Virus record (IMG/VR): IMGVR_UViG_3300007512_001326
Coordinates: 1-35,654 of that record
Length of the DNA: 35,654 bases
Direction: 5' to 3' (one strand)
Source: a virus
Shown: positions 2,653 to 25,187 of the stretch, in pieces
How the letters are laid out: the number at the start of each line of letters is the position of its first letter
How positions within the stretch are numbered: position 1 is the stretch's first letter
Notes under the pieces: generated by a model
What the model saw: the letters and a program-made list of their open reading frames with translations, nothing else
The model's database searches: none
What the model was told of the DNA's origin: nothing
Translations under genes and position numbers: made by a program

Positions 2653-4039
2653 AGAAGCAAAAGAATATACAGAAGATATGCAAAAACTTTATGTAGAGTT
2701 TTTGTTATCGGATTCTGAGTTGTATGGTAGGTGTCAAGCAATTATAGACTCAGAATATTTTGATAGAAAATTTAGAAAGAGTGTAAAGTTTATACAAGAA
2801 CATGTAGACAAATACACAACGGTTCCTACTATAGATCAGTTGAAGGCAAATACAGGTGTTGAATTTACATTAGTTAAAGATGTAGATGAACGACACCAAG
2901 AATGGTTCTTAGACGACTTTGAACAATTTTGTAAACACAAAGCATTAGCAAATGCAATTTTAGGTTCGACAGATTTATTAGAAGAGAATCAATTTGGTGC
3001 AGTAGAAAAAATAATTAAGGATGCAGTACAAGTTAGTTTAGCAAAAAACTTAGGTACAGATTACTACAACGAACCTGCAGATAGATTGCGTAATTTAAAA
3101 TCTAAGAATGGCGGTACTAGCACAGGTTGGACTTCTATTGATGCTAAGTTATTTGGAGGATTTAACAAAGGCGAACTTAATATATTTGCAGGTGGTAGTG
3201 GTGCAGGTAAGAGTATATTCCTGCAGAATCTTGCATTAAACTGGTCGCTAATGGGTTTAAATGTTATCTATTTAAGTTTAGAACTTAGTGAACATCTAAC
3301 TGCAATGCGAATGGATGCAATGGGTACAGGATATTCAACTAAGGATTTGTTTAAAAATTTAGATGATGTAGACCTGCGTGTTAAAATGCAACGTAAAAAA
3401 GCAGGAGCAATACAGATAGTACAGTTAGTAAATGGTTGTACAGTAAATGATATACGTGCATATCTAAAGGAATATACAGTACAAACAGGTATACGACCGG
3501 ATTGCATATTAGTAGATTATTTAGACTTAATGATGCCAGCACAACGTAAAGTACCGCCAAGTGATTTGTTTATTAAAGATAAATTTGTTAGCGAAGAATT
3601 AAGAAACTTATCTGTAGAATTAGATTTATTATTTGCAACAGCATCTCAATTAAACAGAGGTGCAGTAGACGAAATAGAATTTGATCATTCGCATATTGCA
3701 GGTGGTCTTAGTAAGATACAAACCGCTGATAATGTTATTGGTATATTCAGTTCCCGTGCAATGCGAGAACGTGGCAGAGTGCAAATACAATTTATGAAAA
3801 CTAGATCTAGTAGTGGTGTAGGACAGAAACTTGACTTAGAGTTTGATTTAAACACTTTGCGTATATCAGATTTACCAGATGATGAACAAGAAAATAGTCC
3901 TGCAGGAGATATATATGCAACTCTTAAAAAGAAATCTACATTATCAAAAGTAAAAGCAGGATTAGTAGAGAATCAAGTTGTAGAAGATAATGTTAATCAT
4001 AGTGATAAATTAAGAAGTATGTTGAAAGGAATGGATTAA
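2645..4039 (+). CDS. Replicative DNA helicase, DnaB/T4 gp41 type
   Basis: A 464-residue hexameric-type helicase that would unwind the fork 5' to 3'. An N-terminal all-helical region of about 150 residues is followed by a RecA-like core: Walker A GGSGAGKS at 183-190, the LSLELSE segment after it, Walker B-like CILVDYLDLM around residue 291, the ASQLNRG sensor motif, and an arginine-rich segment (FMKTRSSSGVG) expected to hold the arginine finger. This order and length fit DnaB and T4 gp41. Its gene overlaps that of the primase. The last 50 residues are acidic and low in complexity. Confidence 0.92.
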   Translation: MAEEAKEYTEDMQKLYVEFLLSDSELYGRCQAIIDSEYFDRKFRKSVKFIQEHVDKYTTVPTIDQLKANTGVEFTLVKDVDERHQEWFLDDFEQFCKHKALANAILGSTDLLEENQFGAVEKIIKDAVQVSLAKNLGTDYYNEPADRLRNLKSKNGGTSTGWTSIDAKLFGGFNKGELNIFAGGSGAGKSIFLQNLALNWSLMGLNVIYLSLELSEHLTAMRMDAMGTGYSTKDLFKNLDDVDLRVKMQRKKAGAIQIVQLVNGCTVNDIRAYLKEYTVQTGIRPDCILVDYLDLMMPAQRKVPPSDLFIKDKFVSEELRNLSVELDLLFATASQLNRGAVDEIEFDHSHIAGGLSKIQTADNVIGIFSSRAMRERGRVQIQFMKTRSSSGVGQKLDLEFDLNTLRISDLPDDEQENSPAGDIYATLKKKSTLSKVKAGLVENQVVEDNVNHSDKLRSMLKGMD

Positions 4040-13727: not shown

Positions 13728-16346
13728 ATGAGCTATTCTGATTTTAAAAATGGTTTAACAACTTTTCACGAATACATAGCACCTGAAAATCAAAACATTC
13801 CGATTGCTACGCCGTTTGACGGTTCGGTAGTTAGAGTAGAATTAGGTGTAAATCCTAAACAAATGTTATGTGATTTACTTGCTGGTAAATTCCCCCCAAA
13901 ACTTCCACAAATTCAATTATGTTTAGATATGAATTTAGGAGCGTTAGAATCTGTAGCTTCTGCAAATGCCGCCTTAGTAGGTGCTATTCAGGGTTGTAGA
14001 GCAGCATTACAAGGGTTCAATGAACATACAGGCCTTCCATCGACATTAGCAAGGGTAAATGCAGTTATCGGCGAAGCTGCTGCCGTTGCTAGTATGATAG
14101 CATTTTGTTCCGATCCAATTAATCCTAAACCTATTCCTAATTTATTAGAAACTATTATGGGATCTTTTTTAGGTGCAGGCGAAGCAATTATGAATAAGTT
14201 AGGAAAAGTTATGGGAGGCGGCCAAACTGTTTGCATGGATTTTTCTACTAATCCTCCATCTATAAATCATAACATTTATATACCAGGCGGGTTGTTAGAC
14301 GATATTTGGAAAGCAATAGAATCAGGAATGAGTTGGGGACCGTTAGTAGACGATTGGATAAATCAATTTAATGCAATAAGAGATGAATTTTATTCATTAA
14401 TAGAAAAAGAAAATGCTATTGCAGAAGCGGCAATAGAAGCTGGCGGAGTAGGAGGATCTAACGAAATACCTACACTTGCAGATGCTAATCCGGTTGTTCA
14501 AACATCAACACCAGTTAAAGAAGGCGAAGCAACACCAATAGTAACAAGTGTTAAAAATCCATACGGAGGATGTTTTATTGGCGGCATTGTATATCCTGAC
14601 AACCATGATCCTAGATTCCAAAGCAAGTCGGATTGTGAAAATACAAATGTAGGAGGTACTTGGATTAAAAGTGGTGATACAAATCCTCAGTTTTTGGCAG
14701 GTGGTTATACCGGTAATGTATATACATTAGATGTTGCATTAAAATTTACAGAAAAAATGAATCCTAATACTATTGTTGTTAGAAAGAAAACGGATCATTC
14801 AGGTACTGTAGGAAATAATTTAGGAACAGGTTTTTGGGGTTCTGTTAGGTTACTATCACCTAACGGAAAAGAATGTTTATGGGCAGGACAAATGCAACGA
14901 CAAGATAGTCAATACACTACATTTCAAGGAACAGTTTATATACCTAAAGATGAAATTACTGCAAACTCTACATATACATTACAGGTTGGAAGTAATGCAA
15001 GAGGTGTAAATACAAATCCATCAAAAATATTGCCAACATCTGAAGCAGGTAAAGTAAAATTAACAACGTATGAAGCAAAATTTCAAATTAATGCTCCTGT
15101 TGCTCCTACTGCCGCAACTGATCCGATTGGTACTGCTAGAGATGAGAATGACTTAGATAGCGAAGATAGAGATACTCCTAAAATAATAGATAAGACAAGT
15201 AATAATAACTTATTAACACAAGGTATGAATGATGTTGTTACTTTATTTTCATTATGGAAACAATTAAGTGGTTATCCTCTTCAAAAAACAGATGGCACTA
15301 GTTTGGAAACAATTTTTCATGCAATATTTAGTGACGAAACTGTTAGCACACTAAACAATGGCGAAAATTATACAGCACCTGTTTTTACTACAACACCTGA
15401 ATATGATTATTGTGGTAATGTAATAGGATATAAAACCGAATTTGTTCAAGGATCAATTGAGACATCGGACACTACAAAAGCAACGCAATTAGATTCTCTT
15501 GTAAGTATACCGCCGACAGTTAAATCGGTAACACCGGCAGTAAGTGCAACAGGTGTTTTTACGGACGTAACCATAAAAATTATATTCTCGCAAGATATGG
15601 ATTCAGTATCTTTTACCACTCGAGATATCAAGACAACATGGAAACCAACAAAAATATATGATGCATTTACTGGAGGTAGTTGGCCTACAGGTGCTACAGC
15701 CACAAATACAGTAGAATACGAAGGTGCTGAGTATAGTTCAAATGCTAATAATAATACAAATAATTTGCCTACTGATACTACATATTGGACTAAAAGACAA
15801 GATGCTCATCCCACTAGTGGTAATTCTATAGATCATAATTTAGGACCGACTGGCCCTGGAACAGGTACAGTTCGATTATATAATAATACCACAAGTAAAT
15901 ATTTACTTGATATATCTATCGCGTATAATGCAAATAACAGAACATTAAATATTGCACCTAAAACAGCTTTATTAGCAAGTAATCAATATACAGTAGTTAT
16001 TATTGGAACATCAGGATCAGTAACCGCAAAATGCGATCCTGTAGAGAACAATTCCGGCGTGCCTTTAGAAAGTAATTTTTCATCTTCATTTACAATCAAT
16101 GCAGGAGGCAATACCGAAGCATCGGCTGTATTTTCTCAATCAGCAGGCGGAGCTATTAAATTTCCTAATTACACATACTCTGGTTTAGGTTCGTTGGCTA
16201 ACGGGTTAACCGCAACCGATTCAGGTGCTACTGCCTTTTGTCTAGATTGTACAAACGGATCAGGGGTTCCTAAGGAAGAAATTGTTTACTGGACAGGAAC
16301 ACAATGGAAACATGTTTCTGATGGTCAAGTAATTTCTAACCAATAA
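13728..16346 (+). CDS. Large probable tail or baseplate protein with Ig-like domains
   Basis: The largest gene of the window (872 residues). Residues 1-250 mix helical Ala/Gly-rich and loop sequence. A cysteine-containing GGCFIGGIVYPDNHDPRF block sits near residues 281-298 with a matching SDCENTNVGGTW downstream. Two regions look like SbsA-type Ig domains: TGNVYTLDVALKFTEKMNPN (about 325-345) and PPTVKSVTPAVSATG followed by FSQDMD (about 595-625). These domains are common in surface-exposed phage structural proteins. No enzymatic motif is recognised. The start could alternatively be read one codon-shift away (ATG 13724), but only 13728 is in frame. The tmRNA promoter begins 2 nt after its stop. 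Confidence 0.68.
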   Translation: MSYSDFKNGLTTFHEYIAPENQNIPIATPFDGSVVRVELGVNPKQMLCDLLAGKFPPKLPQIQLCLDMNLGALESVASANAALVGAIQGCRAALQGFNEHTGLPSTLARVNAVIGEAAAVASMIAFCSDPINPKPIPNLLETIMGSFLGAGEAIMNKLGKVMGGGQTVCMDFSTNPPSINHNIYIPGGLLDDIWKAIESGMSWGPLVDDWINQFNAIRDEFYSLIEKENAIAEAAIEAGGVGGSNEIPTLADANPVVQTSTPVKEGEATPIVTSVKNPYGGCFIGGIVYPDNHDPRFQSKSDCENTNVGGTWIKSGDTNPQFLAGGYTGNVYTLDVALKFTEKMNPNTIVVRKKTDHSGTVGNNLGTGFWGSVRLLSPNGKECLWAGQMQRQDSQYTTFQGTVYIPKDEITANSTYTLQVGSNARGVNTNPSKILPTSEAGKVKLTTYEAKFQINAPVAPTAATDPIGTARDENDLDSEDRDTPKIIDKTSNNNLLTQGMNDVVTLFSLWKQLSGYPLQKTDGTSLETIFHAIFSDETVSTLNNGENYTAPVFTTTPEYDYCGNVIGYKTEFVQGSIETSDTTKATQLDSLVSIPPTVKSVTPAVSATGVFTDVTIKIIFSQDMDSVSFTTRDIKTTWKPTKIYDAFTGGSWPTGATATNTVEYEGAEYSSNANNNTNNLPTDTTYWTKRQDAHPTSGNSIDHNLGPTGPGTGTVRLYNNTTSKYLLDISIAYNANNRTLNIAPKTALLASNQYTVVIIGTSGSVTAKCDPVENNSGVPLESNFSSSFTINAGGNTEASAVFSQSAGGAIKFPNYTYSGLGSLANGLTATDSGATAFCLDCTNGSGVPKEEIVYWTGTQWKHVSDGQVISNQ

Positions 16347-16347
16347 G

Positions 16348-16376
16348 TTGACACACCATTTTAAATATGTTATAAT
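16348..16376 (+). promoter_or_regulatory. Consensus sigma70 promoter of the tmRNA gene
   Basis: TTGACA (16348-16353), exact 17-bp spacer, TATAAT (16371-16376): a perfect consensus match. Transcription should start near 16383, just before the tmRNA acceptor piece, and could be served by host RNA polymerase at any stage of infection. Confidence 0.93.
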
Positions 16377-16382
16377 AAATAT

Positions 16383-16448
16383 TAATGTTGTTAAGGACTC
16401 TTTGTTGAAAACGACTGGACGAGGGTGCGAATCCCTCCACCTCCACCA
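16383..16448 (+). ncRNA. ssrA: Permuted two-piece tmRNA, acceptor piece
   Basis: The tRNA-like 3' part comes first in the gene, as in alphaproteobacterial permuted tmRNAs. The T arm is GAGGG (16421-16425), 7-nt loop TGCGAAT, CCCTC (16433-16437). CACCTCC (16438-16444) is the 3' acceptor strand, followed by discriminator A and an encoded CCA (16446-16448). The acceptor strand pairs over 7 bp with GGGGGTG at 16551-16557 in the coding piece, with a G-U at the third pair, the alanyl-tRNA synthetase identity element. The T loop has TG instead of the usual TT. The exact 5' end is not determined; 16383 is the predicted transcription start. Confidence 0.9.
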
Positions 16449-16462
16449 AAGGAACATACTTT

Positions 16463-16549
16463 ATGGACGGTCGAGATATTATCTTAACAATTATCTTAAT
16501 GGGCGGAGCAGGCACGCTGGTATTAATTTTAGATGCTATGTTTCGTTGA
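16463..16549 (+). CDS. 28-residue membrane micropeptide ORF inside the tmRNA spacer
   Basis: The segment between CCA of the acceptor piece and the first base of the coding piece holds an ORF with AAAGGA (16448-16453) 9 nt before ATG and a TGA one base before the tmRNA coding piece starts. The product MDGRDIILTIILMGGAGTLV continues LILDAMFR: a short charged head, one hydrophobic span of about 18 residues, and a charged tail. It occupies the spacer almost exactly. Codon choice resembles neighbouring genes. It could be a small membrane or toxin-like peptide translated from the unprocessed precursor or the excised spacer. No family recognised; a chance ORF of this size cannot be excluded. Confidence 0.5.
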   Translation: MDGRDIILTIILMGGAGTLVLILDAMFR

Positions 16550-16550
16550 T

Positions 16551-16702
16551 GGGGGTGTAATAGAATTCGACACCGTGGGATATAAAGACGAGACGACAAA
16601 AACCATAATCGCAAACAATAACGATTATACATCAGCAGGACTTGCCTTAGCGGCATAATTGCTACGGGCTTTTCGGGTTGGGCCTGGGAACAGAATCAAC
16701 CC
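16551..16702 (+). ncRNA. ssrA: Permuted two-piece tmRNA, coding piece with tag ANNNDYTSAGLALAA
   Basis: Begins GGGGGTG (5' acceptor strand), followed by the D-like region TAATAGAATTCGACACCG, close to the conserved tmRNA 5' end. The resume codon is GCA at 16611 and the tag frame runs to TAA 16656-16658, encoding ANNNDYTSAGLALAA after addition of the tRNA alanine. Downstream an H-type pseudoknot is visible: GGGCT (16666-16670) with GGCCT (16681-16685), interleaved with GGGTTG (16675-16680) and CAACCC (16697-16702). tmRNA rescues stalled ribosomes and tags the product for proteolysis; the LALAA end suits ClpX, which this phage also encodes. The 3' end is approximate. Confidence 0.92.
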
Positions 16703-16788
16703 ATTATTATAGTATTACTTAACCACCAAAAACCTTTAAAATATGCCAAAAATAACTAAAAATGCCAAAAAACCAGGTAAATATACTA

Positions 16789-22880: not shown

Positions 22881-23089
22881 TTAGAATAGAAGTAAGAAAT
22901 AATAATGTTGATAAAGCAATTAAATTATTAAAAAAGAAAGTTAACGAAGAAGGCACTATAAAAGAATGTAGGGATAGACAATCCTACGAACAACCGTCAA
23001 AGAAACGGCGAAGGCTTAAAGCACAAGCCATTAGACGTATAGAAAGAAATTTAGAAAAACTATACGAAGGTAAAATAAAAAATTATTGA
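22877..23089 (+). CDS. rpsU: Ribosomal protein bS21
   Basis: A 70-residue protein. The core pattern NNVDKAIKLLKKKVNEEG, then RQSYEQPSKKRRRLKAQAIRR is the bS21 signature with its strongly basic second half. bS21 sits on the 30S platform beside the 16S 3' end and helps mRNA binding at initiation. Phage-encoded bS21 is known in marine phages, including pelagiphages, and may replace or supplement the host protein on ribosomes. Its ATG overlaps the IF-3 stop (ATGA), and its TGA stop is embedded in the -35 box of the next promoter. Confidence 0.93.
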   Translation: MIRIEVRNNNVDKAIKLLKKKVNEEGTIKECRDRQSYEQPSKKRRRLKAQAIRRIERNLEKLYEGKIKNY

Positions 23090-23168: not shown

Positions 23169-23196
23169 TGTCTTGCTTATAAAAAAGGAGAATATT

Positions 23197-23652
23197 ATGA
23201 CACATAGACACCTCACAACCGCTAATCTTAGCGACTTTATCACTTCATTAACACCATTTACAGTTGGTATGGACCGTATGTTTAGAGACTTAGAGCAGTT
23301 TTCTAATTCATATGTGGCGTCCTCTACAGGGTATCCGCCCTATAACATCGAGCAAGTTGATGACGGTAAATGGGTAATTTCTATGGCCATTGCCGGCTTT
23401 GGTGAAGAAGATATTGAAGTTTCGCAAAAAGAACGCAATCTTACAGTTAAAGGTAAGATTAAAAACAAAGACGACGATAATGATTTTGTTCATCGTGGTA
23501 TTGCAAATCGTTCTTTTGAAAGAACATTTCGCTTAGGCGAACATGTGCTTGTTAAGAATGCAACTCTTAAAAATGGCATGTTAGCAATAGATTTAGAACA
23601 GGAAATACCTGAGGAAGAAAAACCTAAAGTAATTCCTATCTCGGTTAACTAA
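23197..23652 (+). CDS. Small heat-shock protein, Hsp20/IbpA type
   Basis: A 151-residue holdase chaperone. I chose ATG 23197 because AAAGGAG lies 6 nt upstream; the frame extends eight codons further to an ATA-region start without a site. The alpha-crystallin domain is clear: PPYNIEQVDDGKWVISMAIA, GFGEEDIEVSQKERNLTVKG, the HRGIANRSFERTFRLGEHV segment and NGMLAIDLEQEIPEEEKPKV with the final IPI-like VIPIS tail motif. Hsp20 genes are characteristic of T4-like cyanophages and their relatives. It has its own consensus promoter and leader hairpin. Confidence 0.92.
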   Translation: MTHRHLTTANLSDFITSLTPFTVGMDRMFRDLEQFSNSYVASSTGYPPYNIEQVDDGKWVISMAIAGFGEEDIEVSQKERNLTVKGKIKNKDDDNDFVHRGIANRSFERTFRLGEHVLVKNATLKNGMLAIDLEQEIPEEEKPKVIPISVN

Positions 23653-23664
23653 GCAATTTTATAT

Positions 23665-23707
23665 GCGGCACTATGTATTAGCGCCTTGAGCCCAAATCGA
23701 GTGCCGC
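23665..23707 (+). terminator. 8-bp hairpin after the Hsp20 gene
   Basis: GCGGCACT (23665-23672) pairs with AGTGCCGC (23700-23707) around a 27-nt loop that itself contains GC-rich sequence. No T-run follows, so it may be a processing or stability element, or a weak terminator, between Hsp20 and clpS. Confidence 0.55.
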
Positions 23708-23739
23708 CTCTAGTCAAATAAATATAAAAAAGAGGTAGT

Positions 23740-24048
23740 ATGTCTGATGTAGAAACTGTAGTTGAAAAAAAAGTTACAGAAAATTTAAATATAAAAGAAC
23801 CTGAAAAATATCAAGTAATATTTGTTAATGATAACTTTACACCGATGGAATTTGTTGTAAAAGTTTTAATGTCGGTATTTCATCATACACTACAAGATGC
23901 GGAAAAAATAATGATAGATATACACGAAAAAGGTAAAGGTACAGCAGGTATATTTTTTTATGAAATAGCCGAGCAAAAGGCAATAGAAACTACCAATCTG
24001 GCCAGAAGTAATGGCCATCCATTAAACGTAGAAGTTGAAACAGCGTAA
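23740..24048 (+). CDS. clpS: ClpS, Clp protease adaptor
   Basis: A 102-residue ClpS. A flexible N-terminal tail of about 25 residues is followed by the core YQVIFVNDNFTPMEFVVKVL with the Asn-Asp pair and Met gatekeeper of the N-degron pocket, then DIHEKGKGTAGIFFYEIAEQ with the pocket His, and NGHPLNVEVE at the end. In bacteria ClpS hands N-degron substrates to ClpA and blocks ClpA from degrading SsrA-tagged proteins. Here it coexists with phage ClpX and tmRNA but no ClpA. A CAAATAAATATA motif and AGAGG precede it. Confidence 0.93.
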   Translation: MSDVETVVEKKVTENLNIKEPEKYQVIFVNDNFTPMEFVVKVLMSVFHHTLQDAEKIMIDIHEKGKGTAGIFFYEIAEQKAIETTNLARSNGHPLNVEVETA

Positions 24049-24595
24049 CATAGTTGTTGTAGGAAATGGTATTAGTAGAAAAAATTTAGATTTATGGCAA
24101 CTTAAAAAACAATATACAGTATACGGATGTAATGCAATATATAGAGAATTTCATCCAGATATTTTATTTTGTGTAGATGATAGAATGTGCAATGAACTCC
24201 ATGTAAGTGGATACTCGAAAGCACATAATGTAATCACAACTAATAAATATAGTTGTCCGTCAGCGACACATATCAATATAAAAAGCCAATGGAAAAAATG
24301 GAATTGTGGTGCGTTAGCATGTTTGTATGCAGCCTCTCAAAATCCAGATATTGTATATCTAGTAGGATTCGACATTGTCCAAGAAAAATACAGAAACATC
24401 TATGAAGGGACTCTCCACTATCCCGGAAAGAACAGTAAAGCAGATATCAGAGTGGGACTTGCTACCAAAGAGCAACTTTGCTGGACCTTTCATTCCTTTC
24501 CCTATATCGAATTTAGAAGAGTTGGTGGAATGGCAATTAGAGAATTCGGAAGATTTAGAAATTATAGAAGAATAAAAAAATTTAATGCTAAATAA
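24035..24595 (+). CDS. Glycosyltransferase-like protein (GT42/DUF115-type fold)
   Basis: A 186-residue protein starting at TTG 24035, overlapping clpS by 14 nt; no ATG is available before the conserved region. RNIVVVGNGISRKNLDLWQL, then YGCNAIYREFHPDILFCVDD, NCGALACLYAASQNP, and IVYLVGFDI followed by NIYEGTLHY resemble the nucleotide-sugar-binding order of family 42 sialyltransferases and DUF115-type proteins. It could glycosylate virion or host surface components. The assignment is by eye; enzymatic activity is inferred. Confidence 0.6.
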   Translation: MKQRNIVVVGNGISRKNLDLWQLKKQYTVYGCNAIYREFHPDILFCVDDRMCNELHVSGYSKAHNVITTNKYSCPSATHINIKSQWKKWNCGALACLYAASQNPDIVYLVGFDIVQEKYRNIYEGTLHYPGKNSKADIRVGLATKEQLCWTFHSFPYIEFRRVGGMAIREFGRFRNYRRIKKFNAK

Positions 24596-24599
24596 TTTT

Positions 24600-24926
24600 A
24601 GGCGGATAAATGACGTCTTAAAAACAGGAAGAGCTGATCTAATCAATTACGTTACTGAAAAGTAATAAACTTGGTCGAGATGTGTTTTTTAAAGACAGTA
24701 AAGTCCGCCTTACACAGAATTACAGGATGTGGTAAAGCTCGGTCCGCACTAGACCACCTCTGCTTTAATTAGCATGTTTGGAATTGTCTATCGAGACCGG
24801 CATAGTAACTAGAGACTTACAAAAGTTAGCCTAATCCGGATAAGGGTTATAACAAAATAGTTTCTGTTTGTTCATAATCGAGTATATGGTAATAATACCT
24901 CTGAACACATGTTTATTTTTTAATAT
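24600..24926 (+). ncRNA. Candidate structured non-coding RNA, unknown class
   Basis: A gene-free block of 346 nt (24596-24941) with stops in all frames and GC content above its neighbours. Visible helices: AGGCGGA (24600-24606) with TCCGCCT (24704-24710), enclosing GTCTTAAAAAC (24615-24625) with GTTTTTTAAAGAC (24684-24696) and a GAAA-tetraloop hairpin; a possible H-type pseudoknot of GTGGT (24729-24733) with ACCAC (24753-24757) and AAAGC (24734-24738) with GCTTT (24762-24766); GGC+TAACT with AGTTA+GCC (24799-24831); and nested GGTA/TACC inside TGTTC/GAACA (24869-24907) followed by a T-run. A CTAAATAATT motif lies just upstream. No known RNA family recognised; ends are approximate. Confidence 0.6.
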
Positions 24927-24941
24927 ACTACAGGACACGGT

Positions 24942-25187
24942 ATGCAAAATTTAAGGAGAAGCATAGCTCATAGGGTAGACAAAGAAGAACTGTCGCCGTG
25001 TCAACTGAACATACGGGATAAAGACCACTTTTATGCTGTTGTTCATTATCTTAATAGAACGTTAGGAAGGCAGGGTTGGAGGGCCCAAAAGAATACACTT
25101 AAAAAATTTAAACAAGGTCGTTCAAATGTTAAGCGTATTTTTTGGTTAACTGACCCTTCCGTTTCTGTAATGCTAAAACTTTTATGA
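24942..25187 (+). CDS. Small hypothetical basic protein
   Basis: An 81-residue protein starting MQNLRRSIAHRVDKEELSP, with AGGA 6 nt before ATG. An AAGGAG sits inside the gene but leads only to ATA, so it is not used as the start signal. The RLG-type middle (YLNRTLGRQGWRAQKNTLKKFKQGR) is strongly basic, suggesting nucleic acid contact, and the end is hydrophobic (SVSVMLKLL). No family recognised. Its stop overlaps the next start (ATGA). Confidence 0.6.
   Translation: MQNLRRSIAHRVDKEELSPCQLNIRDKDHFYAVVHYLNRTLGRQGWRAQKNTLKKFKQGRSNVKRIFWLTDPSVSVMLKLL

Follow-up and report, generated by a model that had tools for sequence, protein, structure and literature searches.

The window analysed here, the whole 35,654-base stretch that makes up this virus record, encodes a DnaB helicase, a primase, a ribonucleotide reductase, and Hsp20-like and ClpS-like proteins. 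It also harbors a permuted (two-piece) tmRNA, matched by Rfam at 16387-16658, where ARAGORN reported none. The Hsp20-like and ClpS-like genes are adjacent (23173-24048, + strand), and together with the tmRNA they possibly form a phage protein-quality-control set. As permuted tmRNAs occur in marine phages (PMC9004378), this tmRNA and the gene content suggest that the phage is probably of marine origin. Four 12-of-12 matches to sigma-70 promoters, likely early promoters, were found on the + strand at 16348, 17922, 23086 and 25462; the first, a perfect TTGACA-17-TATAAT at 16348-16376, precedes the permuted tmRNA, and the last lies ahead of an exonuclease gene. The region of interest is a gap of 346 nt (24596-24941) between ORF 24035-24595 and an ORF of 81 codons (24942-25187). 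A sequence-only reading had described this gap as a block without ORFs that is richer in G + C than its surroundings and whose many complementary segments suggest a functional RNA. Indeed, no real ORF was found in the gap, the longest M-initiated frame inside it having 30 codons; the direction of the G + C difference was also confirmed, but its size is only slight (35.8% vs 34.0% in the flanks). A further gap, at 23653-23739 (+), carries a strong stem (gcggcact...gagtgccgcc) just ahead of an ATAAATA motif. The features of the locus are collected in Table 1.

Table 1. Positions of the predicted RNA elements, their flanking signals and the permuted tmRNA region in the window
Feature	Position	Strand	Basis or remark
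T4-type late-promoter motif CTAAATAAT (putative)	24588-24596 (TAAATA 24589-24594)	+	overlaps stop codon of ORF 24035-24595
Domain I, rod-like arm	24601-24709	+	fold z -3.9; compensatory pairs in P2 and P3; model R1
P1, closing helix, 7 bp	24601-24607/24703-24709	+	domain I
P2	24615-24619/24692-24696	+	domain I; compensatory pairs
P3	24622-24626/24683-24687	+	domain I; compensatory pairs
PK1 5' strand, GAGCU	24631-24635	+	pairs with 24736-24740; GAACU in relatives
P4, bulged helix	24637-24646/24671-24681	+	domain I
P5, apical hairpin, variable	24651-24666	+	domain I
PK1 3' strand, AGCUC	24736-24740	+	pairs with 24631-24635; AGUUC or GGUUC in relatives
Domain IIa, branched helix P6-P7	24741-24798	+	alignment, covariation
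P6a	24741-24746/24792-24798	+	domain IIa
P6b	24750-24754/24786-24790	+	domain IIa
P7	24761-24763/24772-24774	+	domain IIa
Domain IIb, stem-loop P8-P9	24810-24866	+	double changes in 4 P8 pairs and 3 P9 pairs
P8	24810-24817/24859-24866	+	4 pairs changed on both sides
P9	24827-24831/24845-24849	+	3 pairs changed on both sides
P9 apical loop AUCCGGAU, palindromic	24834-24841	+	UCGCGA in relatives
3' tract ending in U-rich run	24867-24929	+	segment identity 0.86-0.88
Putative Shine-Dalgarno AGGA of 81-aa ORF	24932-24935	+	read by eye; purine-rich equivalents in relatives
81-aa ORF	24942-25187	+	behind the long RNA in 7/7 homologues
Permuted tmRNA region	16330-16705	+	Rfam; none reported by ARAGORN

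Three IMG/VR queries, namely the 81-aa protein, the exonuclease encoded downstream and a conserved 20-mer, recovered the same locus in further contigs. Once reduced to distinct RNAs, these add six sequences (L003, L004, L008, L014, L015 and L017) with 72-75% nucleotide identity to the window over the region. The window and these six relatives constitute the comparative set of seven distinct sequences. Among GenBank phages, neither the block region nor the 81-aa protein had a match in nucleotide and protein searches. The junction itself is open to gene gain, as about 1.9 kb of extra genes is inserted ahead of the RNA in L003 (1760-3640).

The alignment was built with MAFFT without structural information, and 58 named pairs in 11 helices were counted on it. 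In 14 of the 58 pairs both partners have changed (21 cells), and 97.5% of the cells pair among the seven sequences, with the caveat that some helices were named after the alignment had been read, which favours the percentage paired more than it favours the double changes. The observed pairing and compensation values were not attained in any of 500 shuffles, and sliding the partners by one to three columns left at most two double-change pairs; because the shuffles take no account of relatedness and a number of the changes are one-time events setting the window apart from the other sequences, the slid controls and the spread of the double changes over seven helices, pseudoknot included, weigh more. 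In addition, the arm, P8 and P9 were recovered by RNAalifold without guidance. The absence of covariation had been named beforehand as grounds for abandoning a structured RNA; the covariation found is strong. The energy of folding, proposed as a second check, gave a divided answer: domain I is exceptionally stable in the window (none of 200 shuffles was as good) and has z of -1.5 to -2.6 in the relatives, but the block as a whole reaches only z -1.46, with 6 of 100 shuffles as good, and domain II (z -0.7) is unremarkable against shuffles, so that the case for domain II as a structure is a comparative one. Taken together, these data leave almost no doubt that the block is a real conserved structured RNA, its predicted length being about 330 bases.

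At the 5' side, a TAAATA box lies just upstream of the predicted 5' end of the RNA, as would be expected of a T4-type late transcription unit. The late-type motif that had been noticed just ahead of the first helix is present as CTAAATAAT in the window, and its counterpart in all six other sequences is GATAAATAAT; the version common to all seven homologues is TAAATAATTTTA (segment identity 0.98), and it stands 6 nt upstream of the closing helix in every one of them. The six relatives also share TAAATAATTTTAGGCGGA at the 5' side of the RNA. Within the window, 12 of the 22 occurrences of ATAAATA fall within 50 nt ahead of ORF starts, compared with 1.8 expected by area, and this enrichment was the best among 21 permuted motifs. 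Domain I follows as a rod-like arm. Its closing helix of 7 bp spanning more than 100 nt and the bulged helix inside it, both anticipated from the single sequence, correspond to P1 and P4. The GAAA-tetraloop hairpin at the tip (P5), while present in the window, is not conserved, the relatives having other loops.

The possible pseudoknot in the initial description was borne out as PK1, which, as the alignment supports, links a bulge in the domain I arm with the domain II entrance. Its one compensatory exchange, at column pair 38-159 (G-C in the window, A-U in the six others), is the sole double change supporting it. An alternative long-range pairing, AAGAAC/GUUCUU, has one mismatch in the window, and PK1 was preferred. 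In domain IIa, P6b reads TAGAC/GTCTA, TAAGT/ACTTA, TTATT/AATAA or TAAAT/ATTTA in five of the seven sequences and contains one mismatch in L004 and L008. The heptamer ACCUCUG occurs twice, at 24756-24762 in the P6-P7 region, where it is invariant in the alignment, and at 24897-24903 in the 3' tract, where it is nearly so. In domain IIb, the palindrome of the P9 loop survives a double change (UCGCGA, UCCGGA), although 15% of shuffled loops contain a 6-nt palindrome by chance.

Behind the last helix, the identity of the 3' tract exceeds that of the helices, and conservation continues to the start codon. No consistent helix was found in this tract among the seven sequences: the GGUA/UACC and GUAAU/AUUAC hairpins were judged by inspection to be broken in several relatives, and the pairing of AGGAUGU with a 3' ACAUG is broken in L014 and L015. 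A terminator scan at the T-run found none, and no G+C-rich hairpin directly ahead of the U-run is kept in the alignment, where the candidate hairpins seen in individual sequences are lost. Of the further nested helices ending in a T-run in the initial description, the run itself is conserved, but no consistent hairpin was found directly ahead of it. A weak sigma-70-like site (TGAACA-16-TATACT) is located at 24902-24929, and the ribosome-binding site of the 81-aa ORF lies outside all conserved helices. The 81-aa protein is 68-74% identical in the six other lineages. As its family is also present in distant relatives (L070-L084) that do not carry the RNA, the protein does not generally depend on the RNA. 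Its AlphaFold model (pLDDT 82) is a small beta-alpha-beta-alpha-beta-alpha fold, for which fold comparison gave no confident match, including to RNA binders.

No Rfam 15 family (GOLLD, ROOL, group I/II introns, RNase P and riboswitches included) matched the block at gathering threshold in the window or the six relatives, in agreement with the initial impression that no family was recognisable, and a permissive search of 24500-25050 returned only a snoRNA family at E 8.5. Neither ARAGORN nor Rfam detected a tmRNA or tRNA-like domain at the block. In the window, no tRNA was found, and no exact antisense target longer than 12 nt was seen for the RNA. With 14 of 58 pairs changing on both sides and no Rfam 15 match, the suggestion of a functional structured RNA of unknown class is supported, and we conclude that the block represents a previously uncatalogued phage RNA family, its status as a structured RNA being near certain. 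The covariance model of domain I (R1) has one match per available record, and no convincing second copy was found in the records of the window and its relatives with models of both domains. Antisense-strand matches of R1 reflect the self-complementarity of the rod-like hairpin, and a single match in a Parcubacteria MAG from the genome collection was attributed to chance.

A shorter version of the RNA was found at the same junction in L018-L025, in which the exonuclease is 82-83% identical to that of the window and both the 81-aa gene and domain II are absent at this locus. Here the sequence TAAATA-G-GGCGGGC...GTCCGCC repeats the motif and follows it with an almost identical P1, and the arm measures 111 nt from GGCGG to CCGCC, compared with 105-112 nt in the long form, with z of -3.0 to -3.9 for its folding energy. 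About 20 nt separate the end of the short arm from the start codon of the following gene, which differs from the 81-aa ORF; no homologue of the latter was found elsewhere in the available, possibly incomplete, short-form records. A palindromic loop is present in the short form too (TTCCGGAA), to be read against the 15% chance occurrence given above. The short-form loci had no match in Rfam. When model R1, built on the long arm, was run on L019, its best place was the short arm, with P1 and P2 aligned, but at E 0.14. A two-gap pattern of motif plus P1, drawn from both forms and so a test of specificity rather than of descent, hit 21 stretches in all of IMG/VR (2.9 million viral contigs), 19 of which were this locus; the other two looked unrelated. 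A common origin of the two arms is likely, resting mainly on position, motif and P1. In L025, a gene resembling glycerophosphodiester phosphodiesterase (by eye; 2940-3680) is inserted right behind the short arm, which stays in place.

As to function, we tentatively propose, at slightly less than an even chance, that this new family of phage RNAs serves as a leader at the 5' end of a late message; the role in cis is the less certain part of this reading. By analogy with T4 late promoters, the motif ahead of P1 would start a transcript whose 5' end is the closing helix, and which would run on past the U-rich tract to include the 81-aa gene and the one after it, giving a late mRNA with a structured leader. 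In cis, such a leader might shield the message from 5' decay or gate translation of the 81-aa protein, and, like the leader of T4 gene 32, it could be bound by a phage protein. The leader reading draws on the fixed place of the late motif before P1, the conservation running beyond the last helix toward the start codon, the 81-aa gene behind the long RNA in all seven homologues, the closeness of the short form to its next gene, the specificity of the motif + P1 pattern to the locus, and the arm of L025 keeping its place despite the insertion. The lack of a terminator-like hairpin ahead of the U-run also argues for it, although the U-run could still be the 3' end of the RNA. Other points tell against a leader: the weak sigma-70-like site could start the 81-aa gene separately, direct gating is not visible because no conserved helix contains the ribosome-binding site, the structure is bigger than a simple leader requires, the late motif is recognised from sequence only, and the link between the short and the long arm consists of position, motif and P1, with model R1 scoring the short arm at only E 0.14 in L019.

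The main rival, a substantial possibility though less probable than the leader, is a stand-alone RNA acting in trans. It would have its own late promoter, end at the U-run and function as an RNA or RNA-protein particle, a concept like that of GOLLD or ROOL with unrelated sequence. Its size, pseudoknot and multi-domain fold, the U-run kept at its 3' end, the ribosome-binding site outside the conserved helices, the single copy per available record and the palindromic apical loop retained in both sequence versions all accord with this; however, the 3' end has no terminator-like hairpin, the long RNA is strictly coupled to the 81-aa gene, and the short form lies directly ahead of a different gene. 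The palindromic loops of both forms would allow homodimerisation, and a homodimer or larger RNA-only particle formed late in infection by kissing loops, possibly with the 81-aa protein as partner, is conceivable but unlikely. We also consider improbable a timing switch of the T4 gene e type, in which folding would silence the 81-aa gene on early read-through mRNA and late transcripts would be translated. Such mRNA could come from the perfect sigma-70 promoter at 23086, which is on the same strand 1.5 kb upstream, and leaders that combine structure with late promoters have a precedent in T4 (PMC3014915), but the late motif here precedes P1, so that late transcripts would keep the structure, opposite to gene e, and no conserved helix covers the start site. 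That a DNA element or decayed coding region explains the conservation, with no acting RNA, would fit the late motif and the 3' tract being the best conserved parts; the compensatory changes in seven helices, the indels that are not multiples of three and the lack of a long ORF make this very improbable.

The leader reading finds a close parallel in the gene 32 mRNA leader of T4 and RB69, the autogenous operator of gp32, in which a pseudoknot is followed by an A+U-rich stretch ahead of the start codon (PMC3014915). The block shows a comparable layout, with PK1 and then a 3' tract without consistent helix upstream of the start codon, as in a leader of the gene 32 type. However, in T4 a distance of 67 nt separates the pseudoknot from the start codon downstream, whereas here there is a structure of about 270 nt with 11 helices in two domains, and the downstream 81-aa gene has no known relation to gp32. 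RNA structure also adjoins a T4-type late promoter in the leaders of gene e and I-TevI of T4. In the former, the promoter sits inside the 5' strand, and the structure is lost from late transcripts (PMC3014915); in contrast, late transcripts of this locus would contain it. Like the permuted tmRNA of marine phages in the same window, the block is a structured phage RNA, but it occupies a separate locus and has no tmRNA or tRNA match. Like GOLLD and ROOL, it is a large pseudoknotted phage RNA of unassigned function; unlike GOLLD, which is often longer than 800 nt, it is far shorter, has no Rfam match and lies in a window without detected tRNAs. GOLLD becomes more abundant at lysis, and kissing loops between molecules have been described for GOLLD and ROOL (PMC12286853); here, similar oligomers are hinted at by the palindromic loops, and an RNA that did form such particles would be a compact counterpart of both. 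Few large structured phage RNAs are known, with functions mostly open. The one described here is pseudoknotted, stands behind a clear promoter motif of the late type, keeps a fixed neighbouring protein gene and has a shorter sister at the same locus, offering small concrete constructs for probing, binding and deletion tests as well as an alignment from which a new RNA family can be seeded.
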